DNA from: an uncultured Elusimicrobia bacterium
GTDB taxonomy: Bacteria; Elusimicrobiota; Endomicrobiia; Endomicrobiales; CAIRNS01
Length of the DNA stretch: 64,000 bases
Assembly: GCA_903880015.1 (NCBI GenBank)
Contig: CAIRNS010000007.1
Location: 62,001-126,000, forward strand
Reading direction: 5' to 3'
Shown: positions 23,264 through 42,544 of the stretch, piece by piece
Position numbering within the stretch: position 1 is the first letter of the stretch
Layout of the letters: the number at the start of each line of letters is the position of its first letter
Made by a program: the position numbers and the translations under genes
Notes under the pieces: generated by a model
Told to the model about the DNA's origin: nothing
Database searches by the model: none
What the model saw: only the letters and a program-made list of their open reading frames with translations

Positions 23264-24549
23264 TGGTCGTCAAAGTCCTGAAAATATTGCTGATTCCGTT
23301 GTGCTTTTTTTTGTGTTCCCCCCGGGCATTGGCCACGACGACTATCGAGCGCGGTGATAATGACAGCTGGATGCTCTATGTTGACGGAAAACCATATTTT
23401 GTCAAAGGCATGGAATATTCGCCTGACCGCGCCGGCGCTTATCCGGACCAGCCCAACGAATGGATGCACGAGGACAAAGACGACAACGGGCAAATCGATG
23501 CGGCTTACGATTCATGGCTAGACGAAAACAATGACGATTTTCATGATGCTCATGAAGACCCTGTCGGCGATTTTCAACTGCTCAAAAATATGGGATGCAA
23601 CACCGTCCGTATCTATCATTCCGATAACCTTAATGTTCCTCTCCTGCGCGACCTTTTTGATACCTACAATGTGCGCGTCATCATGGGCAACTTGCTCGGC
23701 GCGTACACCATTGCCAGTGGCGCCGAATGGTGTGAGGGTACCGATTACACCGATGCCAAGCAATGCGAAAAAATGAAAGAAAGCGTCAGGGCGATGGTCG
23801 AAGAGAACAAAGATGAACCCTATCTGCTGATGTATATGCTGGGCAATGAAAACGATGCCGTCGGGTGTGTCGACAACTGCACGCTCAACAACACCAACGC
23901 GGCGCAGAAGCCGGAAGCGTACGCGAAATTTGTCAATGAAGTGTGTGTGATGATAAAGAAAATGGACCCCCATCATCCCGTCGGCGTGTGTCTGGCTACA
24001 TATAAATTGTTGCCGTATCTTGCACGCTACGCCCCTGCCGTTGATATCGTTGGGTTGAACGCCTACTCCGGACCGTTTGGGTTCGGCTCCCTGTGGCACC
24101 GCGTCAAGACGACTTTTGACCGGCCGGTGCTCATCACCGAATACGGAACGGACTGTTATTATCTCCAAAAGAAAGTTATTGACGAAGATTATCAGGCGCA
24201 CTATCATCGAAAAAGCTGGCAGGACATAGAAAACAACAGTGCCTGGGGCGACAAAGACCGCAACGCGATAGGCGGGGTGGTGTATTGCTGGATGGACAAA
24301 TGGTGGCTGATAGGGTCGCCGCATGATCACGACACCTCTCTCGGCGCGCGGGCTGGTGCGAACAGAGGGGGTGTTTTTTGCGACGAATGGCTGGGCATTT
24401 GCGGTCAGGCAAGCGGTACCAATGCGCCGTTCATACGCCAGCCGCGTAAAGCATATTATATGTATCGGGACGAATTATGGAAGAAATCTCTTCCTTTTGA
24501 GCCCAATTATCTCGCCCCGGCGGCTGTGGATGATGATAATGCGCGCTAA
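23263..24549 (+). CDS. Secreted GH-A-clan glycoside hydrolase, paralogue 2
   Basis: A 428-residue single-domain relative of the previous gene: signal peptide (to about residue 24), PYFVKGMEYSPDRAG, two acidic EF-hand-like loops (DKDDNGQIDA and DENNDDFHDAHED), NMGCNTVRIYHSD, the acid/base Glu196 in MLGNENDAV and the nucleophile Glu293 in LITEYGTDCY. It lacks the N-terminal helical domain of paralogue 1 and the C-terminal domain of paralogue 3. Translation is probably coupled to both neighbours through overlapping stop and start codons. Confidence 0.85.
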   Translation: MVVKVLKILLIPLCFFLCSPRALATTTIERGDNDSWMLYVDGKPYFVKGMEYSPDRAGAYPDQPNEWMHEDKDDNGQIDAAYDSWLDENNDDFHDAHEDPVGDFQLLKNMGCNTVRIYHSDNLNVPLLRDLFDTYNVRVIMGNLLGAYTIASGAEWCEGTDYTDAKQCEKMKESVRAMVEENKDEPYLLMYMLGNENDAVGCVDNCTLNNTNAAQKPEAYAKFVNEVCVMIKKMDPHHPVGVCLATYKLLPYLARYAPAVDIVGLNAYSGPFGFGSLWHRVKTTFDRPVLITEYGTDCYYLQKKVIDEDYQAHYHRKSWQDIENNSAWGDKDRNAIGGVVYCWMDKWWLIGSPHDHDTSLGARAGANRGGVFCDEWLGICGQASGTNAPFIRQPRKAYYMYRDELWKKSLPFEPNYLAPAAVDDDNAR

Positions 24550-25987
24550 AATATCCGCTGTATGTCTTGCTCTCTTTTTGTTCGGCGTAGTGCCGGCAGG
24601 GGCGACAGCTACGGTAGTGACCGTCAGCGGCCGCAAGCTCATGGTTGCGGGCGTTGCCTTTACGATAAAAGGGGTTTGCTATTCGCCGACCCCCGCGGGT
24701 TCCAGTACCTCGTATAACTGGTATGCCGACGCTTCTATCTACAAAAACGATTTTGCTCTGCTCAAGGCAATGGGCGTCAATACTATCCGCGTCTATGGCG
24801 CCGCGAACATGACTGCCGAGTTTCTGGATGCCGCCGATCAAAAGGGGATTCATGTCATCATGGGATATTGGGTTGACGCTTCGAAAGTGGGTGTTGCCGC
24901 CAGCGAAACCGCGATGGTCAACGAATTTGCCACAATGATCAATAAGTGGAAGGCGTATCCGGCGGTACTGCTGTGGATGTTCGGTAACGAGGTGGATGCA
25001 AATGTGAGCAGTAAATCTCATTGGTACACCTTGCTCAACACTGCCTGTGTGCGGGCCCATGCCGAAGACGCGAATCATCCCGTGGGCACGGTAAATCAGG
25101 AAATCACTGAAATAGGGGATGCCAGCGTCAAGGCCGATACGACTACCTTGTCGGCGCTCGACATCTGGGGCATCAATTTGTATCGCGGGTCATCGTTCGG
25201 GAACGCGTTTTCGGTTATGAGCGGAACATCAACCGGGAAAGCGTATTTCATCAGCGAGTGGGGGTGCGACGCGTACAACGGGGTAACCGGCGCTGAAGAC
25301 AGGACTTTGCAGAACAAATATATTAAATCTCAGTGGGCTGAGATAGCCGCTAATCTTTCTGCTGACGGTAAATCCTGCTCCGGCGGGACGGTGTTTGAAT
25401 GGTCTGACGAATGGTGGAAAGGCGATTCGACCGCGGGAAATGTGGGAACAATCGGCGGTGGTGGCGTCAACGGGAATTCAGTTCAGGACACCAGCGCTGA
25501 CTGGCAAAATCCTCATGGAGAAGCAGGTGAAGACCCCAACATGAACGAAGAATGGTGGGGGATAGTCGGTATTGCAAAAAATACCAATGATCGAACCCTG
25601 CGCCCGGCGTATTACGCGCTGCAGCAGGCATGGTATGTCCCAACTTCCTCGGTTGATACAGTCGACGGGATTATCAATCCCAATATTATTTTTCAGGGAG
25701 AGATACACAGTTTCCCCAATCCTTTCCGGGCGGGCATTGATGACACTACCATCAAGATAGTCGTCAGCGGGTCGCCGGATATTACGGTTGAAATATTTGA
25801 TCTTTCCGGTAAAAAAGTGTGTAGTATTTCCGACAGCGTCACCATCGGTTATCAGCGCTTATTCCTCTGGCGCGGGAAAGACAGCGACAATGAGACCGTT
25901 ACCGCCGGTTTGTACATCTGTAAGATAACGGCAAAGATTGAAGGCAGGGAAGAAATTAAATTCAGGAAGATAGCGGTGGCAAAATGA
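24539..25987 (+). CDS. Secreted GH-A-clan glycoside hydrolase, paralogue 3, with FlgD/T9SS-like C-terminal domain
   Basis: Signal peptide (AKISAVCLALFLFGVVPAGA), then a TIM barrel: AFTIKGVCYSPTPAG, AMGVNTIRVYGAAN, WMFGNEVDAN with acid/base Glu151, and FISEWGCDAY with nucleophile Glu240. The calcium-like loops of paralogues 1 and 2 are missing. Residues from about 390 form a FlgD-Ig/T9SS-type C-terminal domain (SFPNPFRAG, VEIFDLSGKKVCSI, LFLWRGKDSDNE, AGLYICKITA, ending KIAVAK). The next gene is a PorV-like barrel. The start is ATG 24539 (24530 and 24533 also possible), inside the end of paralogue 2; upstream in-frame codons only overlap that gene. Confidence 0.84.
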   Translation: MRAKISAVCLALFLFGVVPAGATATVVTVSGRKLMVAGVAFTIKGVCYSPTPAGSSTSYNWYADASIYKNDFALLKAMGVNTIRVYGAANMTAEFLDAADQKGIHVIMGYWVDASKVGVAASETAMVNEFATMINKWKAYPAVLLWMFGNEVDANVSSKSHWYTLLNTACVRAHAEDANHPVGTVNQEITEIGDASVKADTTTLSALDIWGINLYRGSSFGNAFSVMSGTSTGKAYFISEWGCDAYNGVTGAEDRTLQNKYIKSQWAEIAANLSADGKSCSGGTVFEWSDEWWKGDSTAGNVGTIGGGGVNGNSVQDTSADWQNPHGEAGEDPNMNEEWWGIVGIAKNTNDRTLRPAYYALQQAWYVPTSSVDTVDGIINPNIIFQGEIHSFPNPFRAGIDDTTIKIVVSGSPDITVEIFDLSGKKVCSISDSVTIGYQRLFLWRGKDSDNETVTAGLYICKITAKIEGREEIKFRKIAVAK

Positions 25988-26949
25988 CCCTATTCCCGAT
26001 AATCTGTATGTTGCGGAAGATGGTATGCGTCAGCATGATTGTTGTGTGCGCTCTTTCTATCCGTGCGGTCGCTGAAATGCCCATCCTTACGGATGTCCGT
26101 GCGGAGGGTATGGGAACCGCCTATACCGCTGTAGCGCATCAATCCACTGCGCTTGACTGGAATCCGGCCGGCTTGGGGGACATGCGCCGCTCGGATTTGA
26201 CCGCGCTGTTCTCTCAGGGGTTCGTGGATACGAAATTTACCAGTATTTCCTACGGTCGTCCCACTGATTTTGGCGGGTGGGCGCTCGGCTGGGGCCGTGT
26301 TTCCAACGAATTCGAAAAAACAAACGCCCAAGATGATTTTCTCGGGAACGGGGCCGTCAGCAATGATGTTGTTATGGCTGGCTTCGGGTATTATCGCTTG
26401 CCTGTTTCGCTGGGTCTGTCCGTCCGGTACTTTTCAGAAAAGATCGATCCGGTCCAGCTTTCCGGCTATGCGTTCGATGTCGGTGCTCTCTACGAGTACA
26501 AAAAACTTCGTCTCGGCTGGGCATGGAAAAATATTTTGTCCAATTCGCTGGAAGGAACGGGCATGGCGGGCGACAATGTCAGCGAAGTTATCCCGCCTCT
26601 CATGCGCGCCGGCGCTGCACTGACGCTTCCCCTTGATTTTGATATACAGTTTTTGAGCGGCGCATCGGTCGACCCGACGATAAACCCCGAAATATGGCAC
26701 TGTACGCTTATTACTGCCGCGGATGTTGAAATTCCGGTGTACCGCAACCAGTCCCTTGCCGTGAGCCCCGGACTTGAGGTGGGGGTAAACGATTTGATCG
26801 CTTTCCGCGCAGGACTCAAACAATGCAAAGATTTCAGCGTGGGGATGTCGATTAAGGCCTCCGCGGTGAGTTTTGACTATGCGTTTGTTTTTAACCCATC
26901 AATCACTAATACCCATATACTTTCATTGTCCATATACTTTGGCGCATAG
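25984..26949 (+). CDS. PorV/OMPP1-like outer-membrane beta-barrel protein, copy 1
   Basis: A 321-residue protein with a signal peptide and the start typical of PorV/UPF0164 barrels: DVRAEGMGTAYTAVAHQST, then ALDWNPAGLGDM. Alternating hydrophobic strands follow, to a C-terminal aromatic-ended strand (HILSLSIYFGA). In type IX secretion PorV carries cargo with a conserved C-terminal domain to the attachment complex. Here the gene overlaps by 4 bases a glycosidase that has such a domain. No other type IX component is visible, so the function may be a simpler export or anchoring step. ATG 26008 is an alternative start. Confidence 0.78.
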   Translation: MTLFPIICMLRKMVCVSMIVVCALSIRAVAEMPILTDVRAEGMGTAYTAVAHQSTALDWNPAGLGDMRRSDLTALFSQGFVDTKFTSISYGRPTDFGGWALGWGRVSNEFEKTNAQDDFLGNGAVSNDVVMAGFGYYRLPVSLGLSVRYFSEKIDPVQLSGYAFDVGALYEYKKLRLGWAWKNILSNSLEGTGMAGDNVSEVIPPLMRAGAALTLPLDFDIQFLSGASVDPTINPEIWHCTLITAADVEIPVYRNQSLAVSPGLEVGVNDLIAFRAGLKQCKDFSVGMSIKASAVSFDYAFVFNPSITNTHILSLSIYFGA

Positions 26950-27014
26950 TATTGCCCGTTCTGTTTTGCCGCGCGGCGCACGATTTCAGAATATACCGCC
27001 TCTCCAGCCATTCC

Positions 27015-27044
27015 TTGACATTTTCTTCCATTAAAAGGTATATT
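27015..27044 (+). promoter_or_regulatory. Sigma70-type promoter for the OmpA-family barrel gene (near-leaderless)
   Basis: TTGACA (27015-27020), an 18-base spacer and TATATT (27039-27044). Transcription would start near 27051, about 3 bases before ATG 27054, so the mRNA would be leaderless or nearly so. No ribosome-binding site is seen before the ATG. The short GCCGCGCGGC palindrome near 26971 has no T tract and is not called a terminator. Confidence 0.65.
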
Positions 27045-27053
27045 CTTTAATAC

Positions 27054-29699
27054 ATGTCTCCCAAAACATCTTCTTCCATAATGTTATTGCTTCTCCTTCT
27101 TCCGTTTTCGGCAGCTTTTGCGGCGGAAGATCTTATCGAAACAGGTTCAATCAAAGTCAGCCCCCGTCTCCAATTAGATTTTTTCCAGCATAAACTTACC
27201 GACAAGTGGACGCTTACCAAGACCGGCATTGATAATTTCTATGCGTATGCCGATACATCTACCGCCAGAACGCCGACGGAAACATTGACCGGCCAAACCT
27301 TCTATCTTGACCTCTCGCTCCGGCCGATAGATGCCCTCACCGGCACATTCGGATTTGAATATGTCAACAATTACGCCGATGCTTACTGGCGCCCGCATAA
27401 CCGTGAGCACCAGTATACCCTCAACGATCATAAGTTCGCCTGGAATACCGCCGATATTAATTACACGGCTGATTGGGCGAATCTGCGGTATGCCCGCGGC
27501 GTCGGTCGGTTGGATTGGTCGAACGAAGGCGATGTATTCGGCATTTTTTCTGAGACACTGATCCCCCAGATGTTCGAAGTGATTGCCAAAGGACCGGGGG
27601 GCAGGGTTCAGATGGTGTACGGGATGGACAATTCGTGGGAAAATAACGACTCGCATCCCCATATCGGAATTTACGGCAGTGTCCCCTACCTCAACTACAA
27701 TTTTAAACTCAACGGCGGCAGTTATCACCTTCTGTACAAGGACGAAAAGAGCATGTTCGATTCAACGGGGGAGCGCGTTTCGACCTATGAGCTTTCCGGT
27801 GCCTATGAAATGGGGGACAACCCTCTGCAGGTTGGCCTTTTGTATCGGCCGTTCCGTTTGGGATGGAACTACTCGTATCTTGCTGACGCGCCTGCCGGAG
27901 CGGGCGATGTCGGTTCCAGCTTTGTAAAGCATTCCGGCACGACGAATTCGGGGGACGCTTTCGGCGGCGGGGTGAAGTTCACTTACAAACAGTTTTCATT
28001 TCTTGACCAGATGTCTTTGAAGTACACCTATCAGGGGCTGGTTGCCGGCAATAAACAGCAAATGGGCACCGAGCTGGTTCGCAAACTTTCGCGCCCGCTG
28101 ACTGCAACATTTGATTACACCTACCGCAAGCCACTGCAGGGACCGATTCCCCTGATATACGAGGGCACGCCGGCTAACACCGGCCCGGCACTCTTTGAGC
28201 CGCGCGGCCCGGACAGTCCGTTCTGGGTGCAGTGGGACAACCGCGAAGCCAGCATTATTTCGTTTCTGTGCACCTTTGACCCGACGCCGTCCACCTGGTT
28301 CTACCGGTATCAGCCGAACGTTCCCGAAGAGTGGAATCTTAATCCTGATGAGAACGCCCGTATTTCTTTCGCAACGCGCTATACGCTTACGCGGTACTTT
28401 ACCGGAACCGACCGGCTGGTGTATTGGAACGCTTTTGCAGAGCCCGCCTGGGAAGGGTATGGGGCGACCGGCGCATGGGCGACGAATGATTATATCGGCG
28501 CGTTCAATCTTCTCAGCGTGCTTAATTTTCCCGAATCGAAACTACGGTTCATCTTCGATCTTGAACTGGGGCAATCTCTTGCCACTGCCAGCGCCTCATA
28601 TACATTGTCAACCTTAGGGGCAAAGCCGATAACGGATTATGTGATTACCGGGTTGACGATGGTCAGTAATCCTTACGAGGTTTCTTTTAAATATTTTAAG
28701 GATTACTGGGGTCCGGAATATTGGCATCAGACATTCGGGGAAGCGGTTGACAATGTGTATAAGGCGAAAGTGAGCAGAAAATTCGGCAGAAATGTCACCG
28801 CGGGTATTGACTATACCGGCGTCCGCGAACGCGATAAAAAATATGTGGCACCCGAGCTGGGTGACTATGATGAGTATCATTGTTTTGTGTCGATTTCTTT
28901 CGGGCCGATCGTCGGTCGTTTTGGCTCGCAATGGGAAGCGGCTGCTGATGAGCCGGCAGCGGACATTACGCCTCCGTTCGTCGCACTTACTGTTACGCCG
29001 AGAATATTTACGACCGGCGGCGATGGGCCGGACTCTTCGTGCCGTATTGAGCCCCGCGCGTCCGACTTGAATGGCGTTGCTCAATGGGAAATAACCATCA
29101 CGGGCGCCAACGGCAGGGTGGTAAAGGTCTTTGAAGGCAAGGGTCAGCCGCCGGACACTGTTGTCTGGGACGGCAACGATGATGTGTACGCCATGCCGGT
29201 CCACAGCGGGATATACGCCGTTGTCCTTTCCGCGAAAGACAGCGTGGGGAACACCGCTCTCACCCAGCCGATAGATGTGGAAGTAAAAACGATGCCGAAA
29301 GTCATCATCAAGGAAGTCCCCAAAGAAGTTAAGGTCACGGAAATATCCCGGGGGCTGATCGTTTCTCTGGCGTCGAATGTTTTGTTCGATGTCGGTAAAT
29401 ATCAGTTGAAACCGGCTGCCAGTAAAGCAATGCAGGAAGTGGTCAAGATACTTTCGGCATACCCTGAAAACAACATAGTCATTGAAGGACATACCGACAG
29501 TTCCGGCGACGCCGTCATGAATAAAAAGCTTTCTGAAGCACGGGCGCGGAGCGTGGCAAATTATCTTATCGCGGCGGGCGTTGCCAAAGAACGGATTACG
29601 ACTGCCGGATTTGGAAAAACAAAACCGGCTGCTTCCAATGCAACGGTGAAAGGCCGGGCTGCCAATCGTCGGGTGGAGGTGATAATTCTCAAGAAGTAG
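27054..29699 (+). CDS. Large outer-membrane barrel protein with OmpA peptidoglycan-binding domain
   Basis: An 881-residue protein: signal peptide (LLLLLLPFSAAFAAED), a region of aromatic-rich alternating beta strands (about residues 30-620), an Ig/FlgD-like domain (about 640-765, with VVWDGNDDVYAMPVHSGIYAV) and a complete OmpA C-terminal domain (about 770-881, with SNVLFDVGKYQLKP, VIEGHTDSSGD, KLSEARARSVANYL and GFGKTKPAASN). The OmpA domain binds peptidoglycan and ties the outer membrane to the wall. The barrel is too large for OmpA itself and may be a porin or glycan channel serving the neighbouring secreted glycosidases. It has its own promoter. Confidence 0.85.
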   Translation: MSPKTSSSIMLLLLLLPFSAAFAAEDLIETGSIKVSPRLQLDFFQHKLTDKWTLTKTGIDNFYAYADTSTARTPTETLTGQTFYLDLSLRPIDALTGTFGFEYVNNYADAYWRPHNREHQYTLNDHKFAWNTADINYTADWANLRYARGVGRLDWSNEGDVFGIFSETLIPQMFEVIAKGPGGRVQMVYGMDNSWENNDSHPHIGIYGSVPYLNYNFKLNGGSYHLLYKDEKSMFDSTGERVSTYELSGAYEMGDNPLQVGLLYRPFRLGWNYSYLADAPAGAGDVGSSFVKHSGTTNSGDAFGGGVKFTYKQFSFLDQMSLKYTYQGLVAGNKQQMGTELVRKLSRPLTATFDYTYRKPLQGPIPLIYEGTPANTGPALFEPRGPDSPFWVQWDNREASIISFLCTFDPTPSTWFYRYQPNVPEEWNLNPDENARISFATRYTLTRYFTGTDRLVYWNAFAEPAWEGYGATGAWATNDYIGAFNLLSVLNFPESKLRFIFDLELGQSLATASASYTLSTLGAKPITDYVITGLTMVSNPYEVSFKYFKDYWGPEYWHQTFGEAVDNVYKAKVSRKFGRNVTAGIDYTGVRERDKKYVAPELGDYDEYHCFVSISFGPIVGRFGSQWEAAADEPAADITPPFVALTVTPRIFTTGGDGPDSSCRIEPRASDLNGVAQWEITITGANGRVVKVFEGKGQPPDTVVWDGNDDVYAMPVHSGIYAVVLSAKDSVGNTALTQPIDVEVKTMPKVIIKEVPKEVKVTEISRGLIVSLASNVLFDVGKYQLKPAASKAMQEVVKILSAYPENNIVIEGHTDSSGDAVMNKKLSEARARSVANYLIAAGVAKERITTAGFGKTKPAASNATVKGRAANRRVEVIILKK

Positions 29700-29861
29700 G
29701 GGGGGTAATAAATCAATTTATACTACATTGGTTTCGCAGATACCCCATCAGATTCAAAAGGGTGAAAAAACAATTTTTCAAATATTTTTTATCTGTTTTT
29801 CTTCTTTTTCTCAACTTGCGCATATCAGTTTTGAAGTAACTACTCGTGAAAGGGGTATACA

Positions 29862-30506
29862 ATGAAGAAAGTGTTGGCAGCAGCAGTGGCGGTATTGATG
29901 GCGGCGGGAATTGCGGGAGCAGCGCCGAAAAAAGCAGTCGTGGCAAGCGATGCAGGGACAGTCGTTAAAAAAGAGGCCGCAAAAAAGAGCGGATTCTTTT
30001 TCGGTTTGTATTCCGACCAGGGGTCCCGTGACGACCATTTTGCACCTTCAGGGTGGATGGGCGACTACGGTGATCTGAAAATCAATCCCGGCTGTGCAGA
30101 GAACCCGCATAACGGGAAGTATTGCTTCAAGGTTACCTACAGCGCCAGAGCGACCCAGAACGCGGGTTGGGCAGGCATTTACTGGCAGCAGCCGGCAAAC
30201 AATTGGGGCGACAAAAAGGGCGGCTACAATTTGACCGGAGCCACGAAGCTTACTTTCTGGGCGCGGGGCGACAAGGGTGGCGAAAAAATGGCTGAGTTCA
30301 AAGTCGGCGGTATAACCGGTGAATATCCGGATTCCGACTCAAACACCCTCGGACCGGTTGAATTGACCAAAGCATGGACGCAGTACACCATCGAACTCAA
30401 AGACAAAGATCTTTCAAACATCATCGGCGGGTTCTGCTGGTCAGCATCCAAAGATGACAATCCCAACGGATTTATCATTTATCTCGACGATATTCAGTTC
30501 GAATAA
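29862..30506 (+). CDS. Secreted carbohydrate-binding-like protein 1
   Basis: A 214-residue protein with a signal peptide (KKVLAAAVAVLMAAGIAGAA) and one beta-sandwich domain: APSGWMGDYGDL, GWAGIYWQQPANNWGDKKGG, LTFWARGDKGGE and a final YLDDIQFE strand. This pattern of single-domain jelly rolls ending in a conserved D-x-I-x-F/Y strand resembles CBM11/CBM-like sugar-binding modules. It is the first of four related genes to 33421. AAAGGGG precedes the ATG. The 162-base gap upstream is AT-rich and probably holds a promoter, but no clear -35/-10 pair stands out. Confidence 0.7.
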   Translation: MKKVLAAAVAVLMAAGIAGAAPKKAVVASDAGTVVKKEAAKKSGFFFGLYSDQGSRDDHFAPSGWMGDYGDLKINPGCAENPHNGKYCFKVTYSARATQNAGWAGIYWQQPANNWGDKKGGYNLTGATKLTFWARGDKGGEKMAEFKVGGITGEYPDSDSNTLGPVELTKAWTQYTIELKDKDLSNIIGGFCWSASKDDNPNGFIIYLDDIQFE

Positions 30507-30521
30507 AAGACAACTATCATC

Positions 30522-30549
30522 ATGCGGGATGGGGCGACCCATCTCGCAT
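30522..30549 (+). promoter_or_regulatory. Intercistronic stem-loop
   Basis: ATGCGGGATGGG (30522-30533) pairs with CCCATCTCGCAT (30538-30549), 11 of 12 bases, around GCGA. No T tract follows, so it is more likely an mRNA-stability or partial-termination element that lowers expression of the downstream paralogue. The in-frame ATG at 30522 lies in this stem and is not taken as a start. Confidence 0.6.
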
Positions 30550-30560
30550 GGTATAGCATA

Positions 30561-31971: not shown

Positions 31972-32036
31972 CGAAGTTCGCCCCTGCGATTGTCGACGAC
32001 GGAACAATAGATAGAATGTATGGGTGGAAATGGTCT

Positions 32037-33421: not shown

Positions 33422-33480
33422 TACCTAATCCCCTATTCCCGGCATAGAACGGTCATCGTTAATCATATTTGTCCCATTGC

Positions 33481-33652: not shown

Positions 33653-33707
33653 ATCTGTGGTTTTCAATAAACCATTGAAAATTGCCTTAAACTTATAAAA
33701 ATAACTA

Positions 33708-33736
33708 TTGCGAAATTAATGTCTATACACTATACT
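33708..33736 (+). promoter_or_regulatory. Sigma70-type promoter for the (alpha/alpha)-barrel gene
   Basis: TTGCGA (33708-33713), a 17-base spacer and TATACT (33731-33736), with AAGGAG at 33746-33751 and GTG start at 33763. Spacing of all parts is normal. Confidence 0.6.
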
Positions 33737-33762
33737 TGTGTTGACAAGGAGCTTTTACAATA

Positions 33763-35253
33763 GTGAATCTAAAGAAACTGTTAACTTTGCTGTTTGTTTT
33801 TAATCTTTTCTGCAGTGTGGTTTCGGGGGCTCCTGCGCCCGAGGTCACAAAAAAAGAATACCGCGAGGCGTTTTTGTCGCCCGCACTGCAAAAGGATTAT
33901 TACAAGATTATGATGCAGACGGTCAGGTTTTTTGACCATCAGCAATCAGCGGTTAATCTGCTCATTGAAAGTTTTCGGGGAAGCTCGACCTATTCCTACG
34001 ATATGTTTACCCAAGCTTTTTGTACGGGCAAGGAGGGCTCGCTTGACGCGCAGTCCTTTACCTACGACGGGGCCGTGGCGGCGCTTTCGTTTTTGATGGC
34101 CGGGCAGGCAACAAAGGCCGAACGGATTTTGCGGGTGTACCGGCAAGAATTTTATTATGTCAAAGTTGACGCCATAGGGCTGTATAATTCTTACCGTACC
34201 GATATGCCGTTGAACAGATACGGCGGGCTTACCCCGGGCATTGACGGCGACAGAACCCATCTGGGACCGACCATGTGGGTAGCCATCGCTGCCCTGCAGT
34301 ACACGGCCGTCACCGGCGATTTGCATTATTTGAGTTTAGCGATAGACATGGCCACCTGGGCCCGTCAGCTTAATCACTACCGGTTTGCTGATGGACAAAA
34401 AGGAGGGGTCTGCATGGGGTTCGGCTGGGGACCGGACTGGTCGCAGGTTTATTCGACGGAGAATAATGTCGATTACTACGCGGTGCTGTGCCTGCTTAAA
34501 GAAATATATTCGCGGGGCGATCATAAAGTAAAAAATATTTACGAGAATAAGAATCTCACCCCGCAGGCAATGGCAACGGAAATGAACGGGCTGGACAGGT
34601 GGTTCAAAGAGGTCGTTTATGATCCGGGAAAAAATGCGTTTCATTGCGGCTATAACGAAAATGGCGTAGACACCACGGCGGCGTTGGATACGATATCGTG
34701 GACCATCGCGGCGCTGGGCCCAAAAAAACTTGACGATATGGGTATTAATCCCTTTTTGTTGATGAATTATGCGGAAAAAAGTTTCAAGGTTTTTAACCGC
34801 ATAGGTGAACAAAAAGTCGAAGGTTTTGATTTTACTAATGCCACAGGCCGCAAATCCCCGGTTCGGGTAATCTGGATCGAGGGCACGGGGTTTCAAACCG
34901 TCACCTATCAGCTTATGGCGCGCTATGCCGCTAAGCTGGGCCTTGCAAAAAAAGCGGACGAGTATCTGCAAAAAGCAGTAAAGTATTCCGATGAAATGGA
35001 AAAAGTTTCCCGGGCGGCTCATTTGATAGAATATGCACTGCCGTATGTGGCAAGGCGTCTCGGGGAAAAAGAGATTTTAACTACATTTAACGACGATTGG
35101 GAGATACCGCGGGGAAACAAAGGCCAGTGGGTTGCTTCATCTTCGTCAACCGCGTGGCGTTTATTCGCTTTAATGGGTTTTAACCCATTGGAATTCGACG
35201 AAAACAATATTCACTACCGTTATTTTGACCGTCCTGTTGCGAGAGGGCGCTGA
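33763..35253 (+). CDS. Secreted (alpha/alpha)-barrel protein, probable glycoside hydrolase or lyase
   Basis: A 496-residue protein with a signal peptide (LKKLLTLLFVFNLFCSVVSGA) and repeated helical hairpins typical of (alpha/alpha)6-toroid glycan enzymes. Examples are QSFTYDGAVAALSFLMAGQ, GPTMWVAIAALQYTAVTGD, NNVDYYAVLCLLKEIY and WIEGTGFQTVTYQLMARYA. Acidic residues in the YDMFTQAFCTGKEGSLDAQ and ENNVDYY segments could be catalytic, but I cannot assign a CAZy family. GTG is the start; AAGGAG lies 11 bases upstream. The 265 bases after it (35254-35518) show no convincing gene. Confidence 0.65.
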   Translation: MNLKKLLTLLFVFNLFCSVVSGAPAPEVTKKEYREAFLSPALQKDYYKIMMQTVRFFDHQQSAVNLLIESFRGSSTYSYDMFTQAFCTGKEGSLDAQSFTYDGAVAALSFLMAGQATKAERILRVYRQEFYYVKVDAIGLYNSYRTDMPLNRYGGLTPGIDGDRTHLGPTMWVAIAALQYTAVTGDLHYLSLAIDMATWARQLNHYRFADGQKGGVCMGFGWGPDWSQVYSTENNVDYYAVLCLLKEIYSRGDHKVKNIYENKNLTPQAMATEMNGLDRWFKEVVYDPGKNAFHCGYNENGVDTTAALDTISWTIAALGPKKLDDMGINPFLLMNYAEKSFKVFNRIGEQKVEGFDFTNATGRKSPVRVIWIEGTGFQTVTYQLMARYAAKLGLAKKADEYLQKAVKYSDEMEKVSRAAHLIEYALPYVARRLGEKEILTTFNDDWEIPRGNKGQWVASSSSTAWRLFALMGFNPLEFDENNIHYRYFDRPVARGR

Positions 35254-35518
35254 GCAAAAAGCGATTTCACAGAGATTTCACAAGTTTTTTTAATGCGCAG
35301 AGCATCAAAAAGGTACAATATTTATGAAGGAATATATGAAATTATACTGTTCTCACCATCTGTCAAAGGGAAATGCTGGGCAATCGCCGGATGCAAAGCT
35401 TTTTGTCCCGTCGGTGTGGGATGGCTAAAACAGCCGGATATAGTTCATAAACGGCCAATTTTTTGTAACAGGGTGTGTCAAGATCGAAGATAGTCAAGTT
35501 ATTTTAAAGGAGGATTTT

Positions 35519-36277
35519 ATGCGTAAGACAGTTTCGTTGTTAGTTTCGCTGGTTCTGTTGGCGGTGGTTTCAACCGCGTCGTACGCGGCGTTTACTGGGA
35601 TTTCACGATCGACCTATACGGCAGCGATAATTTTTACCGCCATAGGTAGTGTGCAGGCATCGTTCGAGGTCAGGAATGTTTCTGACAATGCCGTTGTGTT
35701 AACCGGAATCAGCTGGGATCCAGCGACCATTACGCTGGGCGGTACCACAAAATGGAAAGCATCCAGCCAGTATATCGTGATGCATTCGACCATTACTGCG
35801 GCGTCTGGCGGTATTCAGATATATACCGACAACAAAGCTGCCGATGCGGGAATATATGCGTATACGGGTATTTCAACAGCGACGGCGGCAGGACTTGTCG
35901 GTTATTCCACCACGACTTATGTGATGGCACCTTCTTCGACGACTCTGTCGATGTGCTGGCGCGTAGTTGACAATTCGACGACGACGCTGAACATCCAGCG
36001 GGGCACGGCGGGATATCCTGATCGTCTCTGGGAATCCACATTGGGCAGCGGGTTTCCATGTTTCCTGTGGATGATGGACAGATTCACCGGAGGGTTTAGT
36101 GATGGCATGGATTATATAACAGTGAAAGATGGCAATCGTGGTATTCAGTATGGCGAAGCGTCATGGGGCGGTTCAGCGTCACCCGATTATATCTACATCG
36201 GCGCTGACTTTACCACTGCGGTCACACCGCGCACCTATCGTACCAACACGCTGCGGGTGGAAGCGTTTACGGAATAA
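35519..36277 (+). CDS. Secreted protein of an unrecognised family, member 1
   Basis: A 252-residue protein: signal peptide (VSLLVSLVLLAVVSTASYA) and a beta-rich body. Conserved features shared with the genes at 36364 and 37930 are GGIQIYTDNKA, AAGLVGYST, LSMCWRVVD, YPDRLWESTLG, FPCFLWMMDR, QYGEASWGG and SPDYIYIGADFTTAVTPRTY. AAAGGAGG precedes the ATG. I know no named family for it. A PapD-like chaperone gene two genes downstream suggests subunits of a surface structure. Two conserved Cys residues could form a disulfide. Confidence 0.65.
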   Translation: MRKTVSLLVSLVLLAVVSTASYAAFTGISRSTYTAAIIFTAIGSVQASFEVRNVSDNAVVLTGISWDPATITLGGTTKWKASSQYIVMHSTITAASGGIQIYTDNKAADAGIYAYTGISTATAAGLVGYSTTTYVMAPSSTTLSMCWRVVDNSTTTLNIQRGTAGYPDRLWESTLGSGFPCFLWMMDRFTGGFSDGMDYITVKDGNRGIQYGEASWGGSASPDYIYIGADFTTAVTPRTYRTNTLRVEAFTE

Positions 36278-36363
36278 CGAAAATTTATACGAAAGAAGGT
36301 GAGAAATGCAGAGATTGAGTAAATGAAAGCAAAAGTAACAAAAACTAAAAAAGGAGAAAATGT

Positions 36364-37122
36364 ATGAAAAAATTATTGACTGCAGTTCTTTCCGTGACGA
36401 TGCTTGGCGTGTTTGCCGCTACATCGTTTGCGGCATTTGGTTCAGTATCGAAGTCAACAGCGACCGCGTCGGTTAGTTTCGCCGGCGCCGGACTGGTTAA
36501 CATTGCCATTCAGATCCGTAACCGGTCTGACGATGCTGTCGTAAGCAATCTGTCGTGGAACGCTGCCAGCGACATCGCACTGGGAACGACGGGTTGGAAA
36601 GCGTCTGACCAGTACATATTGCTGACATCAACCATCACCGCGTCGCTCGGAGGAGTTCAGATTTACAGCGACAACAAATCAGCTGACCTGACGCATCCGT
36701 ACACGGGTATTTCCACCTCAACGGTTGCAGGGCTTGTCGGTTGGAGTGCTTCCAATCTGGCGCTTTCATCGTCTACTCTTCCCATGTGTTGGCGCATAAC
36801 CGACACTTCGACGACGACGCTGAGCATCCAACGGGGCACGGAGGGCTTTCCTGATCGTCTCTGGGAATCGACCCTGGGAAGCGCTTTCCCCTGCTTCCTA
36901 TGGATGATGGACAAGAATACCGGCGGATTTGCCAATGGAATGGATTACATCACGGTTAAAGCTAGAGGACATACTCCTAGCGGCGCCGCCATTCAATACG
37001 GCGAAGCGTCGTTCGGCGATTCAGCGTCACCCGATTACATCTATGTCGGCGCTGACTTCACCGCGGCTGTCACACCTGCTGCGTATGCGACCGTTCTGCG
37101 CGTAGAAGCGTACACGGAATAA
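36364..37122 (+). CDS. Secreted protein of the same unrecognised family, member 2
   Basis: A tandem paralogue of the preceding gene with identical length (252 residues) and matching motifs: signal peptide, GGVQIYSDNKS, VAGLVGWSA, LPMCWRITD, FPDRLWESTLG, FPCFLWMMDKNTGG and ASPDYIYVGADFTAAVTP. The strongest conservation is in the C-terminal half. AAAAGGAG precedes the ATG. A stable hairpin follows before the chaperone-like gene, as in pilin-chaperone operons where subunits are made in excess. Confidence 0.65.
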   Translation: MKKLLTAVLSVTMLGVFAATSFAAFGSVSKSTATASVSFAGAGLVNIAIQIRNRSDDAVVSNLSWNAASDIALGTTGWKASDQYILLTSTITASLGGVQIYSDNKSADLTHPYTGISTSTVAGLVGWSASNLALSSSTLPMCWRITDTSTTTLSIQRGTEGFPDRLWESTLGSAFPCFLWMMDKNTGGFANGMDYITVKARGHTPSGAAIQYGEASFGDSASPDYIYVGADFTAAVTPAAYATVLRVEAYTE

Positions 37123-37140
37123 GATCGTCATTCTCTATCT

Positions 37141-37172
37141 GGTGAGGCAGCGGCGCGTGCCGTTGCCTCACC
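37141..37172 (+). terminator. Intercistronic hairpin, partial terminator or attenuator
   Basis: GGTGAGGCAGCGGC pairs with GCCGTTGCCTCACC (one G-T pair) around a 4-base loop. TTTTTTATT begins 8 bases later and runs into the next start codon. This is a strong stem placed between the two subunit-like genes and the chaperone-like gene, suited to reducing read-through rather than ending transcription completely. Confidence 0.65.
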
Positions 37173-37189
37173 GGTAAGGATTTTTTATT

Positions 37190-37945
37190 ATGAGAACACT
37201 TGTCGTCTTTTTGTTGCTTCCCTTTTTTGCCCTGCCGGTTTTTGCCGGATTGAATGTTAATCCTTCCCGCGCGGAAATTGTTATGTCGGCGGGACAGTCG
37301 TATTCAAATGTTTATACCATTACCAATGACTATGGTGTTCCCATCACTATCAGCGTTGTGACAAAAGATTGGTTTGTCTTGCCGGAAAATAAATCTATTT
37401 CTGCAATCGATTGGCTGCAGGTTTCCACGCCTTCGTTTCATCTTGCGATTGGGGAGACCAAAGAGCTCAGATATCAGGTAGTGATTCCTACCCAGGCGGT
37501 TGGTTCCCTGGTCGGGATGATTTCTTTGTCGCCAAAAAGCGAGACGGAACAGGGAGTGACACTGGTTCTCAGCGTGCCGGTTTTTGTCACGGTTGCCGGT
37601 ACTGAAAAAATTGATTGGGATTTCACTGATACGCAATTTTCCAACAAAAGCGGGAAACTACAGGTGTCGATAAAAATAACCAACGCCGGCAACATTCATT
37701 TGCGTCCGGTTGCCGAAGCAGTTCTTTTTGACGGTAAAAAAGTAGTCGGTAAAATGTCTTTCGGTGAAAGCAGGCCGGTGTATCCGGGATCCTATCGTTC
37801 AATCATGAGCACCATGGATGTGCCGAAAAAAGGGACATATAAAGGCGCGGTGAAAATTGTGTGCGCCGGGCAGGAAAAAATTAAAAAATTCAAATTAAAA
37901 ATCAATAAGTCAGGCGAACTTAAGATAACATGGCTCAAAAAATAA
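37190..37945 (+). CDS. PapD-like periplasmic chaperone-type protein
   Basis: A 251-residue protein with a signal peptide (LVVFLLLPFFALPVFA) and two Ig-like parts. The first starts LNVNPSRAEIVMSAGQSYSNVYTI and has WLQVSTPSFHLAIGETKELRYQVVIP, the strand layout of PapD/fimbrial chaperones and of DUF916-type proteins. The second is DFTDTQFSNKSGKLQVSIKI. The basic C-terminal tail (KIKKFKLKINKSGEL) is unusual. It probably binds or caps the neighbouring beta-rich secreted proteins. It overlaps the next gene by 16 bases. Confidence 0.68.
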   Translation: MRTLVVFLLLPFFALPVFAGLNVNPSRAEIVMSAGQSYSNVYTITNDYGVPITISVVTKDWFVLPENKSISAIDWLQVSTPSFHLAIGETKELRYQVVIPTQAVGSLVGMISLSPKSETEQGVTLVLSVPVFVTVAGTEKIDWDFTDTQFSNKSGKLQVSIKITNAGNIHLRPVAEAVLFDGKKVVGKMSFGESRPVYPGSYRSIMSTMDVPKKGTYKGAVKIVCAGQEKIKKFKLKINKSGELKITWLKK

Positions 37946-39201
37946 TAGTCCGATTCATGGCCGTTGTGTTGTGCCTCACGGCCGCCGTAGCGGCTGAAGC
38001 GGGTAATATCGGCCATACCGTATACGGGTTATGGTCGGAAACCTACGCGGGAATCATCTTTGGGGATGTGCGATATTCAAGTACCACTGCGACGGATGGG
38101 TATCTGGGCGCGTGGAATTGTTTTGTGTCCACTATAACCCCGGGGGCTGAAGGGCAGTATGCGCTTGAATTGGACACCTATGGGCAGAACGGCGGCATAT
38201 TCATGCAGTTCGGGTATAACGGGACAGATACCAGTCCGCAGGTTCCGACTGACATGAGCGCGTACGCCGGCGGTACCCTTCAATTTATGGCGAAAATATA
38301 CACCGAATGCGGGGTGAAGATCGAGTGGACGGGTGGCTCCAAGGAACTGTTGATGAATGCGAAGCTCGGTGTCGCTATGGATAACCAGTGGCATCAGGTT
38401 TCCGTGCCCCTTTCATGGTTCACGGGAATCAATTTATCCGCTATCACCTGTCCCGCTGATTTTTATTCGCAGTGGCTGGCCAGCCCGCCACTGACGCGCA
38501 CGCTGTATATCGATAATGTGTTCTGGCAGAAAGCCAATCCGTCGTATACATTGAATGCGACGATAAAAAATACGCTTACGCACGCCGCCACGACGCAGAT
38601 AACCTGGAGTAATGTTAATCTCGGTTCGACCAAGTGGAAAGCTGCCGACCAGTATATTGAACTCAATTTAGATTGCTATATGCCCAACTGGGGCATACAG
38701 ATTTATACGGACAACACGAACACATTAACCGGCGCCAATCCCTTGTATGTTGGCGGCGGAAATCCTGCCGGGCTTGTCGGTTATTCTACTATGACTGTGA
38801 CGGCTTCTTCTCAGACTCTGCCGATGTGCTGGCGCATTACGGACAGTACGATCACGGTCCCGAGCATTCAGCAGGGCGCGCCGTCGTATCCGGACCGGCT
38901 GTGGGATGCCAATACCTCTACAACAACATCAATTGCGAAAGCATATCCCTGTTTCTTCTGGTTGAAGGACCAAAAAACTCCCGATAACCCTTTGACGGTT
39001 GGAATCAACGAGGCCTTCAGCAATTCGGATGATTATGTGACCGTCTGGTCTTCTGGCGGGATTCACCATGCTGAAGGAGCCAATTGGGGTGGCGGTTGTT
39101 ATTCTCCCAACTACATATATTTAGGTGCGAATTTTTCCAATGGGCTGACGCCGCGCACCTATAAGACGAACGAACTTACGCTTGAACTCTTCAATGATTA
39201 A
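37930..39201 (+). CDS. Secreted protein: carbohydrate-binding-like domain plus the unrecognised family domain
   Basis: A 423-residue fusion. After a signal peptide (VRFMAVVLCLTAAVAAEA), residues about 25-200 form a CBM-like sandwich (WNCFVSTITPGAEGQYALEL, GGTLQFMAKI, WHQVSVPLSWF, TRTLYIDNVFW). Residues about 205-423 are a third copy of the domain seen at 35519 and 36364 (WGIQIYTDNTN, GLVGYSTM, LPMCWRITDS, YPDRLWD, SPNYIYLGANFSNGLTPRTY). The fusion links this unknown family to glycan binding. It overlaps both neighbours and is probably co-translated. Confidence 0.68.
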   Translation: MAQKIIVRFMAVVLCLTAAVAAEAGNIGHTVYGLWSETYAGIIFGDVRYSSTTATDGYLGAWNCFVSTITPGAEGQYALELDTYGQNGGIFMQFGYNGTDTSPQVPTDMSAYAGGTLQFMAKIYTECGVKIEWTGGSKELLMNAKLGVAMDNQWHQVSVPLSWFTGINLSAITCPADFYSQWLASPPLTRTLYIDNVFWQKANPSYTLNATIKNTLTHAATTQITWSNVNLGSTKWKAADQYIELNLDCYMPNWGIQIYTDNTNTLTGANPLYVGGGNPAGLVGYSTMTVTASSQTLPMCWRITDSTITVPSIQQGAPSYPDRLWDANTSTTTSIAKAYPCFFWLKDQKTPDNPLTVGINEAFSNSDDYVTVWSSGGIHHAEGANWGGGCYSPNYIYLGANFSNGLTPRTYKTNELTLELFND

Positions 39202-41605
39202 GACACGAGTACTCTTCATCGCGCTGTTGTTGGCCGCCGCCGGGACGCTGGGCTACACAGTTACGGTCGTGGTGACGACGCAAGCTACTGCGTTTGTTAA
39301 TTTTTCCAGCAACGCGCCCAATAACGCCATCGTTACCGAGGCGAATTATATTCTTAAGTGCCAGGCGGACAATACATTTAGTACCGGCGCAGGGGCGTTC
39401 AACGATGTTGCCGGCGCTCCGACATGGGTGGTGCCGCGCGAGAATGGGACAGCGGTCATCGGGCTCATTGAGGCGTTCATCGAGACGGGTACATTCGCAT
39501 ACAGGACCGGCGCTCTGCAATGCTTAGATTATCTTAAAAACCGACAGGAAGCCGACGGCGGATGGAGCAAATGGTATGACGAAACAACCCATGTGCGGGT
39601 AGATTCCGCGACCTCTCCTTCCGAGGCGGGGTCGGTCATCATGGCGATGTATAAAGCCAGCAAAATGGGGTGGGAAGATTCTTCTCATCAATATTACGCT
39701 TCAGCGAAACTGGCAGGCGGTTTTATTATGGCGTGCATTACCAACAAACCCGGGACAGCAAACGGGCTTGCCGGTGCCGGCAAAGAGTATACCGTAAGCT
39801 ATTCAAGCGCCCCTACTGACGCCCGGGGTGCATATAAATGGAGCGACTGGAGCTGGGTGTCGGACAATTCATATGCCTATCTGGGGCTCATTACTTTGCG
39901 CGACTGGGCAGTTTCCACGGGGGATTATGCGTTCGCCAGAACTTGCAACCAGTTCGTTGCGGGGATATTGACTGGGATGAATACCTATCTTAAGAATCCT
40001 TCAAACGCGGTTTGGTATCGCGTTGTCGACGGTAACGGCGTGAAAATTGACGGTTATTCCGAGAAGATTGACGCGTTGTGCTATTATCCTCAAAAATATG
40101 ATATTCCCGTGACGCAGTATGCGCAGCAGAATATTGCCCAGTGGATGGTGGACAATCTGCAGGTGACTACCGCAACAACAACGGTGCATCAGGGATACGG
40201 CGCTTTTATGTGGGTTGACGCCGGTTCTGAAACGGTTAAACAGCGCCGGTCGCAGGGTTTTTCTGAAGAGGCCTGGCTGGCGCTCGTTGATATCCCCGGT
40301 CAGACAGCACTTGACGCCCGCACCCGCGCCAAGAATTGGTGGCTTGATTACAATAATGCCAACGATATTCAAACCAGTTCCGCCCCGGTCAGTTATCAGT
40401 TGTGGGATGTGGTCAAAGGCGGTATTCTTGATTGGTACGATCCGATAGCCAATGCAGTCGCGCAATGGTGGGAACGATTTATCGACACTTCCGCAAACTG
40501 TATTTTGGTATACCGCGGCGGGTATGATTATACCGCCGGCATACCGCAAACGACAACCACTGTTTCGCCCCAGATTGCGCATACGCCGATTGTTTCCGTG
40601 TCGCCGATCACCGGTGTTTTGACGGCAACCGGAACCATAACCGCCAGTGCTCCTCTGCGGGCAGTTTCCATGACCTATTATTCAAATGCCGTCCCCGCTC
40701 CGGCGACGGTTTCAAGCGCTCCGGGCGGAGCGACGACATACCATTTTTCTCTCAGTGCGTCGCCGGATCTCTCGACAGCGACCACCTTTTACTACTCACT
40801 GCACGCTGTGGATGCGGCGGGTAACGAAATTCGCGCTCCCGCCGACGGATACTATGCCGCACAAGTAGCCCGTGCCGCACAGGCGACCTTTAACGCTTCC
40901 GGCGGACAGTTAGCCCTTCCGGGCGGCAACGCGTTCGGCGGAGTGGCGTCCATCTCCATTCCGTTGGGAGCGCTGGACTCAAATCAGACGATTACATTCC
41001 TCGAAGTAAAGCCGGAGGATGTCGGCATCAATCCCCCGACCGGGAAATATACCCTTGGCGTTGATATGCCGGTGGTCATGTACCAGTTTTTGCCGGAAGG
41101 ATTGACCTTTGCCCGCCCGGCAACGATTACCCTGCTGTATCCTGACGATAATAATGATAATATCGTCGACGGGACGACTATAGACGCCAGCCAACTGTCC
41201 ATTCTCTGGTGGAATGAAACCTACCAGCAGTGGGATTATGTCGGCGGGGTTGTTGACACGATACATAAGACAATCACTTGTCCGATCACTCATTTCAGCG
41301 TGTATGGCGTCGGGTTCAAGGGGCCGCTTACCGACAACGATTACCGGCCGAAAGAAAAGATCATTACCCCGGCAACCATTGATAACTACAATGATTTTGC
41401 GAACTTCGGCGGCATCGGGATTGACGATAGCATCTATATCTACGATGTGACCGGCCGCAGAGTCAGAGAATTACAGCAGGGCACCTCCCGCTGGGACGGC
41501 AAGGACCAGGACGGCAGGATAGTTGAGAGCGGCATTTATATCTATCAGATAAAAATACACGGAAAGAATAAGCCCATCAGCGGCACCATTGTTGTCGCAA
41601 AGTAG
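39194..41605 (+). CDS. Large secreted (alpha/alpha)-barrel protein with ZU5-like and FlgD/T9SS-like C-terminal domains
   Basis: An 803-residue protein: signal peptide (KTRVLFIALLLAAAGTLG), a helical toroid-like domain (about 40-430: CLDYLKNRQEADGGWSKWY, YAYLGLITLRDWA, GFSEEAWLALV), a fibronectin-like segment (about 455-560) and a ZU5-like domain (about 565-700, from FNASGGQLALPGGN). It ends in a FlgD-Ig/T9SS-like C-terminal domain (IYIYDVTGRRVRELQ, SRWDGKDQDGR, SGIYIYQIKI, ending TIVVAK). ATG 39194 is used; TTG 39182 is open. A PorV-like gene follows 6 bases later, the second such pairing in the window. Catalytic function is unknown. Confidence 0.72.
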   Translation: MIKTRVLFIALLLAAAGTLGYTVTVVVTTQATAFVNFSSNAPNNAIVTEANYILKCQADNTFSTGAGAFNDVAGAPTWVVPRENGTAVIGLIEAFIETGTFAYRTGALQCLDYLKNRQEADGGWSKWYDETTHVRVDSATSPSEAGSVIMAMYKASKMGWEDSSHQYYASAKLAGGFIMACITNKPGTANGLAGAGKEYTVSYSSAPTDARGAYKWSDWSWVSDNSYAYLGLITLRDWAVSTGDYAFARTCNQFVAGILTGMNTYLKNPSNAVWYRVVDGNGVKIDGYSEKIDALCYYPQKYDIPVTQYAQQNIAQWMVDNLQVTTATTTVHQGYGAFMWVDAGSETVKQRRSQGFSEEAWLALVDIPGQTALDARTRAKNWWLDYNNANDIQTSSAPVSYQLWDVVKGGILDWYDPIANAVAQWWERFIDTSANCILVYRGGYDYTAGIPQTTTTVSPQIAHTPIVSVSPITGVLTATGTITASAPLRAVSMTYYSNAVPAPATVSSAPGGATTYHFSLSASPDLSTATTFYYSLHAVDAAGNEIRAPADGYYAAQVARAAQATFNASGGQLALPGGNAFGGVASISIPLGALDSNQTITFLEVKPEDVGINPPTGKYTLGVDMPVVMYQFLPEGLTFARPATITLLYPDDNNDNIVDGTTIDASQLSILWWNETYQQWDYVGGVVDTIHKTITCPITHFSVYGVGFKGPLTDNDYRPKEKIITPATIDNYNDFANFGGIGIDDSIYIYDVTGRRVRELQQGTSRWDGKDQDGRIVESGIYIYQIKIHGKNKPISGTIVVAK

Positions 41606-41611
41606 ACATCT

Positions 41612-42544
41612 ATGAAAAAGCTAACACTTTCTTTCATTGTTTTATTTATCTCGCTTCCCGCCGCGGCCGCGTTTAAGGATGCCGGCTGGGGCGCTCGTCC
41701 GCTGGGTATGGGCGGGGCGTTTACCGCCGTGGCAAACGACGCTAACGGCCCGTTGTTTAATCCGGCGGGTATCGATCAGGTAACCCACAAAGAAGCGACC
41801 TTTATGTCTTCTAAATTATTTACCGGGCTTGAAGGTGTTGAGATTGGGCAGAATTATTTTGGCTATATTCATCCCTTGGGCCGTCAACTGGGCACGCTTG
41901 GCATTGTGTGGTCGTCGCTGTACGCGCCCGGATATTATCGTGAAGATACCGGCAGTATTTCGTACGGAAAATATATCGAATCGCTTTCATCATCGAAAAT
42001 AAATGTATCCATGGGCGCCAGCATGCGGTATCTGCGCCATGAATACAGTTTGGACCAGTACACCTCACGAGACCCAGTGTTTGCTAACGGGTATAGCGCG
42101 GCTGCCATGACCGCTGATTTCGGTGCGCTGGTGGCATTGCCCAAGATGGGTTTGTCATTTGCGTTCGCCAGCAAATGCGTAAACAGCCCCGATGTTGGAC
42201 TGAAAACGCCCGATGTGGTGCCCAATGAAAATGTGGCTGCGGTCGCCTACTATACCAATATGCTTCCGTATGTCAAACTACCCAATTTTACCATCGACGC
42301 CGATGTGGTCAACCGCGACAATATCACCGATGTCCGGATTGGCGTCGAAACATGGTTGATGAACGGAAAATTCGCCATCCGTGCGGGAGAACGGCCTCAA
42401 GAGATTTCCATGGGGTTGGGCTACGAGCTCGGATTCAAAAAATCAGCGACAGTTTTGGTCATTGATTATGCGTTCGGCTGGCCGCTGCAAATGGAGCAGA
42501 CCACCGGTACCCACCGGATGGCTGTCACCGTCAGATTCCCCTAA
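41612..42544 (+). CDS. PorV/OMPP1-like outer-membrane beta-barrel protein, copy 2
   Basis: A 310-residue barrel with a signal peptide (KKLTLSFIVLFISLPAAAA) and the family start DAGWGARPLGMGGAFTAVAN, then GPLFNPAGIDQV. Its final strand (HRMAVTVRFP) ends in Phe-Pro, close to the usual outer-membrane C-terminal signal. It is more PorV-like than copy 1. Adjacent to a protein with a T9SS-like C-terminal domain, it probably helps place that protein on the surface. No gene for the other type IX machinery is seen. Confidence 0.8.
   Translation: MKKLTLSFIVLFISLPAAAAFKDAGWGARPLGMGGAFTAVANDANGPLFNPAGIDQVTHKEATFMSSKLFTGLEGVEIGQNYFGYIHPLGRQLGTLGIVWSSLYAPGYYREDTGSISYGKYIESLSSSKINVSMGASMRYLRHEYSLDQYTSRDPVFANGYSAAAMTADFGALVALPKMGLSFAFASKCVNSPDVGLKTPDVVPNENVAAVAYYTNMLPYVKLPNFTIDADVVNRDNITDVRIGVETWLMNGKFAIRAGERPQEISMGLGYELGFKKSATVLVIDYAFGWPLQMEQTTGTHRMAVTVRFP

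Follow-up and report, generated by a model that had tools for sequence, protein, structure and literature searches.

In this work, we analyzed a window of 64,000 nucleotides (contig C7, positions 62001-126000; coordinates given below without a contig refer to this window) from the genome of a bacterium of the Elusimicrobiota, near Endomicrobiales (1.81 Mb, 99.9% complete). The window contains two gene pairs, each made up of a secreted protein with a C-terminal tail of the type IX secretion system (T9SS) type and, directly after it, an outer-membrane barrel of the PorV family (cargo 1 with PorV1 and cargo 2 with PorV2; table 1). We consider it likely that each pair consists of a cargo and its dedicated carrier, both belonging to a type IX-like secretion route in reduced form, with the genome's own homologue of SprA as its pore. 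An earlier note, made from the letters of the window, had pointed out the two pairs, suggested that each barrel is devoted to its neighbour and raised the possibility of a reduced type IX-like route. Its interpretation was largely supported, and the gene arrangement that it described was confirmed: the cargo 1 and PorV1 genes overlap by 4 nt, PorV2 starts 6 nt past the stop codon of cargo 2, and all four products carry a hydrophobic signal-like N-terminal stretch.

The same pairing is found in the rest of the genome, for which gene counts were derived from six-frame searches. A tail profile built from a C-terminal domain alignment that includes cargo 1 (A1) matched nine places, seven of them being free-standing C-terminal tails with readable ends. 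All seven genes (7/7) adjoin one of about nine PorV-family genes, and chance pairing in this genome is excluded (binomial p about 2e-14). Two PorV-family genes, at C7:132178 and C1:45089, have no tail neighbour. The ninth place matched by A1 lies at the edge of the N-masked contig C22 and was not judged; a "giant" open reading frame of 24,396 aa with a tail-like match on that contig was rejected as an artefact of the masked sequence. The PorV-family gene at C2:59856-61151 (L025:5857-7152), beside the tailed papain-family cargo, is another of the nine places; it has a C-terminal tail-like domain of its own, and this end of the barrel should face the periplasm. The two tail-only proteins of contig C28 consist of little beyond a signal sequence and the tail, and the PorV genes beside them (L026:7600-9744 and L026:16426-18408) are fusions, one with TPR repeats and the other with an OmpA domain.

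The tails of both window cargoes pass T9SS-type models. Cargo 1 scored 28.7 bits with TIGR04183, the T9SS type A model (cut-off 23), and cargo 2 scored 31.8 bits with Pfam CHU_C, a type IX signal domain (cut-off 27), while failing TIGR04131 (22.8 bits, cut-off 35). With FlgD_ig, also named in the earlier note, both tails fell under the cut-off (PF13860; 17.1 and 14.6 bits against 27). The A1 profile matched cargo 1 with 92.2 bits and cargo 2 with 72.1 bits. When the tail profile was compared with PDB, the best matches were the C-termini of PorZ (5M11, E=4.7e-8) and PorU (6ZA2, 2.2e-7), with FlgD ranking behind them (5.5e-6). A terminal lysine or arginine is present in 88 of 94 distinct tail proteins, against a background of 31%, and position -6 of the tail is a lysine in 72 and an arginine in 11 of the 94. 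A strongly hydrophobic N-terminal stretch was found in 69/83 tail proteins and in 199/518 background genes. In the type A tails of Bacteroidota, a lysine near the C-terminus is almost invariant and important for function; it contacts PorV (PMC10994853).

For the barrels, both profile and predicted fold point to the PorV family rather than to FadL. Although PorV1 and PorV2 matched the PorV_fam model NF033709 below its cut-off of 90, several other family members of the genome score over it, and a profile of 44 relatives around the window barrels retrieved the solved PorV (6H3I_F) with E=3.7e-40, the best FadL-type protein reaching 2e-7. The AlphaFold model of PorV2 (predicted local distance difference test, pLDDT, 84; predicted template modelling score, pTM, 0.82) had its highest listed Foldseek template modelling (TM) scores with PorV of the SprA complex, 0.74 (6H3I_F) and 0.71, whereas FadL reached about 0.6 and FadL/TodX matches had Foldseek E-values down to 9e-9. 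An identity as PorP/SprF was not supported by the PorP_SprF model, with 13.3 bits for PorV1 (cut-off 22.3) and no match for PorV2.

A genome-wide hunt for sprA, which the earlier note had proposed as a check, was positive. The protein at C29:36499-41874 is homologous to SprA/Sov, the 36-strand translocon of the outer membrane, yet divergent, scoring under the equivalog cut-off of TIGR04189 (200 bits), and its named relatives are Endomicrobiales/Elusimicrobia bacteria. A PDB search with this single sequence gave no match and SprA_N was not matched in the Pfam scan, but a profile of 32 Elusimicrobiota relatives retrieved the PDB SprA structures (6H3J/6H3I) with E=3.4e-33 over three collinear stretches. 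An AlphaFold model of residues 100-1180 (pLDDT 76, pTM 0.50) had four SprA structures as its top Foldseek matches (8GL6, 8GL8, 6H3I and 6H3J; E 4.4e-46 to 3.1e-33), with query-normalised TM-scores of 0.41-0.49, and the next, unrelated match stood at 6e-5. SprA homologues were found in 129 of 150 Elusimicrobiota genomes (86%), or 113/123 of the high-quality ones, in every genome under the curated cut-off.

Tails occur together with SprA and are lost together with it. In one genus, they were found in 13 of 14 SprA-positive genomes and in none of 13 SprA-negative ones (Fisher p=7e-7), and in a set of 34 genomes from more than 20 families the counts were 23/24 and 2/10. The genes are also linked: of 20 regions of 20 kb around sprA, 14 hold a PorV gene and 11 a tail protein, the recurring order being a TPR lipoprotein, PorV, a tail-bearing M6 protease, lptF/lptG, sprA and a comF-like gene, with lptF/lptG on the opposite strand. 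This joint presence or loss and this linkage across families, together with a barrel profile that favours PorV, the partner of SprA, over FadL, argue against a reading in which the pairs are real two-gene surface modules exported independently of SprA, with a barrel that is simply a porin or an anchor and an immunoglobulin (Ig)-like tail of structural role. We regard this reading as improbable, even if FlgD-like Ig tails and FadL-like barrels do occur outside T9SS, some tails match FlgD_ig comparably to Por_Secre_tail, and the tail-like domain fused after the barrel at C2:59856 would sit in the periplasm.

The permeases of lptF/lptG type beside sprA, seen in this genome and in others (e.g., L022, L204 and L211), could also be taken to mean that SprA serves mainly the export of lipopolysaccharide (LPS) or glycans, and that the cargo pairs merely share genomes with it. 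This is highly improbable in our view, since the same loci hold PorV and the tail-bearing M6 protease and the SprA-negative members of one genus have no tails. Cargo display is possibly tied to LPS export, and the proximity of these permeases to sprA may reflect LPS anchoring or a simple operon neighbourhood. The tail-bearing M6 metalloprotease is linked to sprA in many Elusimicrobiota families (L022, that is, C29:30000-49999, and also L204, L207, L208, L211-L213, L216, L218 and L219), and its HExxH zinc motif was intact in 10/10 proteases checked. It is a candidate for a processing enzyme replacing PorU.

Across the phylum, cargo-barrel pairs recur throughout, so that the arrangement first seen in the window is phylum-wide. 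In the 34 genomes, tail and PorV counts are near 1:1 (e.g., 31/31, 36/39, 26/27, 21/21 and 20/21) and strongly correlated (r=0.97; partial r=0.93 given genome size). PorV was the immediate neighbour of 59 of 96 C-terminal tail proteins, with about 2% expected, and lay within two genes of 68 of them; these rates are approximate, the sample being 80 regions picked from the better-scoring tail matches, with truncation or strong divergence hiding some regions, PorVs or genes. All 56 pairs of a divergence test (56/56) were on the same strand. The distances between tails correlate with those between barrels (r=0.485, against 0.054 +/- 0.065 in within-genome shuffles; p=0.0002), and the nearest neighbour was identical in the tail and barrel sets for 22 of 63 pairs, while shuffles averaged 5.3 and reached 13 at most. 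Correlated divergence of this kind shows that the pairs are inherited jointly, and binding specificity is consistent with it, not proven by it. That each barrel is devoted to its neighbour is suggested by adjacency, 1:1 numbers and correlated divergence.

Four other components of a T9SS (GldM, GldN, GldL and the C25 peptidase of PorU) were searched for in 22 diverse genomes. GldM was matched in none (0/22), no positive-control genome having been searched; GldN and the C25 peptidase (PorU) were likewise matched in none (0/22 each), with controls silent too, so that their absence is not established. GldL gave no credible match, again without a positive-control genome: the weak ones (E 2e-5 to 0.03), all under the cut-off, were rejected as unrelated control genomes matched as well. 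Among the genes beside SprA in 20 loci, none was recognised as motor-like. An assignment of the SprA-linked TPR lipoprotein to SprE was not supported, its profile retrieving generic TPR proteins only. With SprA found and these matches missing, albeit without a positive control, the "reduced" part of the earlier proposal is supported, while "motorless" is unproven because the GldM, GldN, PorU and GldL searches had no such control.

The same results may be turned the other way, to a type IX system that is complete and whose GldLM-type motor, ring and PorU are ordinary but so strongly diverged that the curated models miss them; "reduced" would then be an artefact of detection. The fact that SprA itself is under its cut-off everywhere means that other parts may be unrecognisable; the searches for GldM, GldN and C25 lacked a positive control above the cut-off, and a remote counterpart of SprE/PorW might be seen in the TPR lipoprotein that is linked to SprA and PorV. 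We hold this to be rather unlikely, given that GldM, GldN and C25 went unmatched in 22 diverse genomes and GldL was not credible, that motor-like genes went unrecognised at the 20 SprA loci, and that the lipoprotein profile yields generic TPR proteins and not SprE.

Several observations weigh against a reduced route with dedicated carriers. About 29% of the sampled tail proteins had no detected PorV within two genes, and some of these may have a PorV neighbour that is too divergent or lies outside the examined stretch. Pairs inherited merely as a unit would also give correlated divergence. Many SprA-negative genomes of the genus mentioned above are small and general reduction contributes, so the joint loss of SprA and tails may in part be general gene loss. 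One genome (G022) has SprA and four PorV-family genes and no tail by the A1 profile, reflecting either a diverged tail or a different use of the pore, and two others (G046 and G116, both fragmented assemblies) carry tails, with SprA not found. Moreover, motor loss in Flavobacterium johnsoniae stalls cargo on the translocon (PMC10994853), and a motorless route would therefore need another source of energy.

Structures from F. johnsoniae, in which the type A tail binds PorV loops inside SprA and exits sideways with PorV (PMC10994853), offer a model for how the likely route of dedicated carriers may work. The cargo (a GH72/GH2-like enzyme in one pair and a large, weakly pectate-lyase-like protein in the other) would reach the periplasm via Sec. 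The tail of the cargo, an Ig-like domain at the C-terminus in which the lysine at position -6 is nearly constant and the last residue is a lysine or arginine, would then enter the SprA pore. There, loops of the PorV-family barrel encoded by the adjacent gene would bind the tail, and cargo and barrel would exit SprA sideways together. At the cell surface, the cargo probably stays attached to its own barrel; a lasting union of carrier and cargo there would best account for the stoichiometric pairs. More tentatively, and with rather less than even confidence, we propose an ancestral or minimal type IX route lacking motor and sortase, made up of SprA and of PorV-type carriers, each private to one type-A-like cargo, in which the carrier would act as both export partner and permanent surface anchor and energy would come from a source other than GldLM, such as cargo folding or consumption of the carrier.

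Table 1. Tail-bearing proteins, PorV-family barrels and related features of the window and of other contigs of the same genome
Feature	Position	Strand	Remarks
Cargo 1, secreted GH2/GH72-like TIM-barrel enzyme	24539..25987	+	482 aa, end ...KIAVAK; tail gene of pair 1, with PorV1
Cargo 1 tail, T9SS type-A-like sorting domain	about 25700-25984	+	ends VAK
PorV1, PorV/PorQ-family outer-membrane barrel	25984..26949	+	NF033709 80.5 bits, E=1.6e-22
Outer-membrane protein, OmpA-type peptidoglycan-binding end	27054..29699	+	Pfam OmpA 86.4 bits
Cargo 2, secreted protein with T9SS-type tail	39194..41605	+	803 aa, end ...TIVVAK; tail gene of pair 2, with PorV2
Cargo 2 tail, T9SS-type sorting domain	about 41333-41602	+	ends VAK
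PorV2, PorV-family outer-membrane barrel	41612..42544	+	NF033709 48.8 bits, E=7e-13
Tail gene, papain-family protease	C2:61148		adjoins PorV-family gene
Tail gene, NHL-repeat protein	C2:42208		adjoins PorV-family gene
Tail gene, M6 metalloprotease	C29:44124		adjoins PorV-family gene
Two small tail-only proteins	C28:99780, C28:105931		neighbours are the TPR and OmpA fusions of PorV
SprA homologue	C29:36499-41874		1,791 aa; NCBIfam TIGR04189 161 bits, E=2e-47

The genes around the two pairs include several other secreted proteins. The body of cargo 1 matches Pfam Glyco_hydro_72 (56.4 bits), and its gene is the last of three secreted glycosidase-like genes in tandem (starting at 21329, 23263 and 24539; range 21329-25987), with matches to GH2 TIM-barrel and GH72 glucanosyltransferase families; cargo 1 is the only member of the trio with a sorting tail. 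The OmpA-type gene is the next one after PorV1 and a candidate partner of it; elsewhere in the genome, one gene (C28:106425) joins a PorV barrel to an OmpA domain. Upstream of cargo 2, whose N-terminus bears a weak likeness to pectate lyases (Pec_lyase 16.3 bits, under the cut-off), the segment 35519-39201 encodes two small secreted paralogues (35519 and 36364), a longer relative (37930) and another secreted protein (37190); those scanned had no family match above its cut-off. Directly 3' of PorV2, an open reading frame of 8,357 aa (43481-64000 on the + strand, running on to C7:130554) matches the 1,3-beta-glucan synthase domain (GT48; PF02364, 108.8 bits, cut-off 37.2) and also has GH2-type regions, one part being similar to cargo 1 (81 bits). 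The GT48 family is known mostly from eukaryotes. Taken with the GH72/GH2-like proteins upstream, this frame suggests a beta-glucan theme.

The T9SS has been described as exclusive to Bacteroidota (PMC12618676), was detected by Abby et al. in Bacteroidetes only (PMC4793230), and according to a review is present in Bacteroidota, possibly in other phyla of the Fibrobacteres-Chlorobi-Bacteroidetes (FCB) group, and "absent from other bacterial phyla" (PMC11285876). In our search of the open-access literature we found no description of it in Elusimicrobiota, although an earlier description elsewhere remains possible; the few open-access papers naming both treat them separately, those checked mostly in reference lists, and such genes may already be labelled PorV or sorting domain by automatic annotation. 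A stripped-down type IX-like route probably exists in a phylum where the open-access literature has not described it. The occurrence of SprA in 86% of the Elusimicrobiota sampled, in association with PorV carriers and type-A-like tails, would widen the known range of the T9SS and provide a natural test of its core (pore, carrier and tail) against its additions (motor, ring and sortase). Natural pairs of one carrier per cargo would also supply many matched tail and carrier sets from which rules of recognition could be drawn, and the pairing predicts surface-displayed enzymes of uncultured Elusimicrobiota.

Compared with known systems, the arrangement resembles the T9SS of Bacteroidota in its SprA homologue, with collinear matches and the SprA fold, in its PorV-family carriers and in C-terminal Ig-like tails that carry a conserved lysine close to their end. 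It differs in that the usual rule in Bacteroidota is a single PorV shared by all type A cargo (PMC12618676), whereas here the ratio of PorV to cargo is about 1:1 and the two genes adjoin each other on the same strand; furthermore, GldM, GldN and C25 went undetected and GldL was not credible in searches lacking a positive control, and Elusimicrobiota lie outside the FCB group. The isolated parts have more distant relatives: the Ig domain of the FlgD hook cap shares the Ig-like fold and a weak sequence match with our tails, which differ from it by their extreme C-terminal position, their lysine or arginine end and their closer likeness to PorZ and PorU, and FadL/TodX channels share the barrel fold, with a much weaker profile match and lower TM-scores than PorV. 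A dedicated carrier directly beside the cargo gene is known from the type B cargo of F. johnsoniae, which exits with its own PorP/SprF carrier, usually encoded by an adjacent gene and acting as an anchor (PMC12618676, PMC9143113). In both cases the carrier is thought to set the final location or anchor of the cargo, but the carriers described here are of the PorV/PorQ family and the tails are mostly type-A-like, cargo 2 being nearer to CHU_C. We do not class the route as a full T9SS member, because its PorV is not shared and motor, ring and sortase may or may not be part of it; in the way it would work, a T9SS core with private carriers comes closest. The Elusimicrobiota arrangement combines features of both Bacteroidota systems, joining PorV-type carriers and type-A-like tails with the rule of one carrier per cargo.

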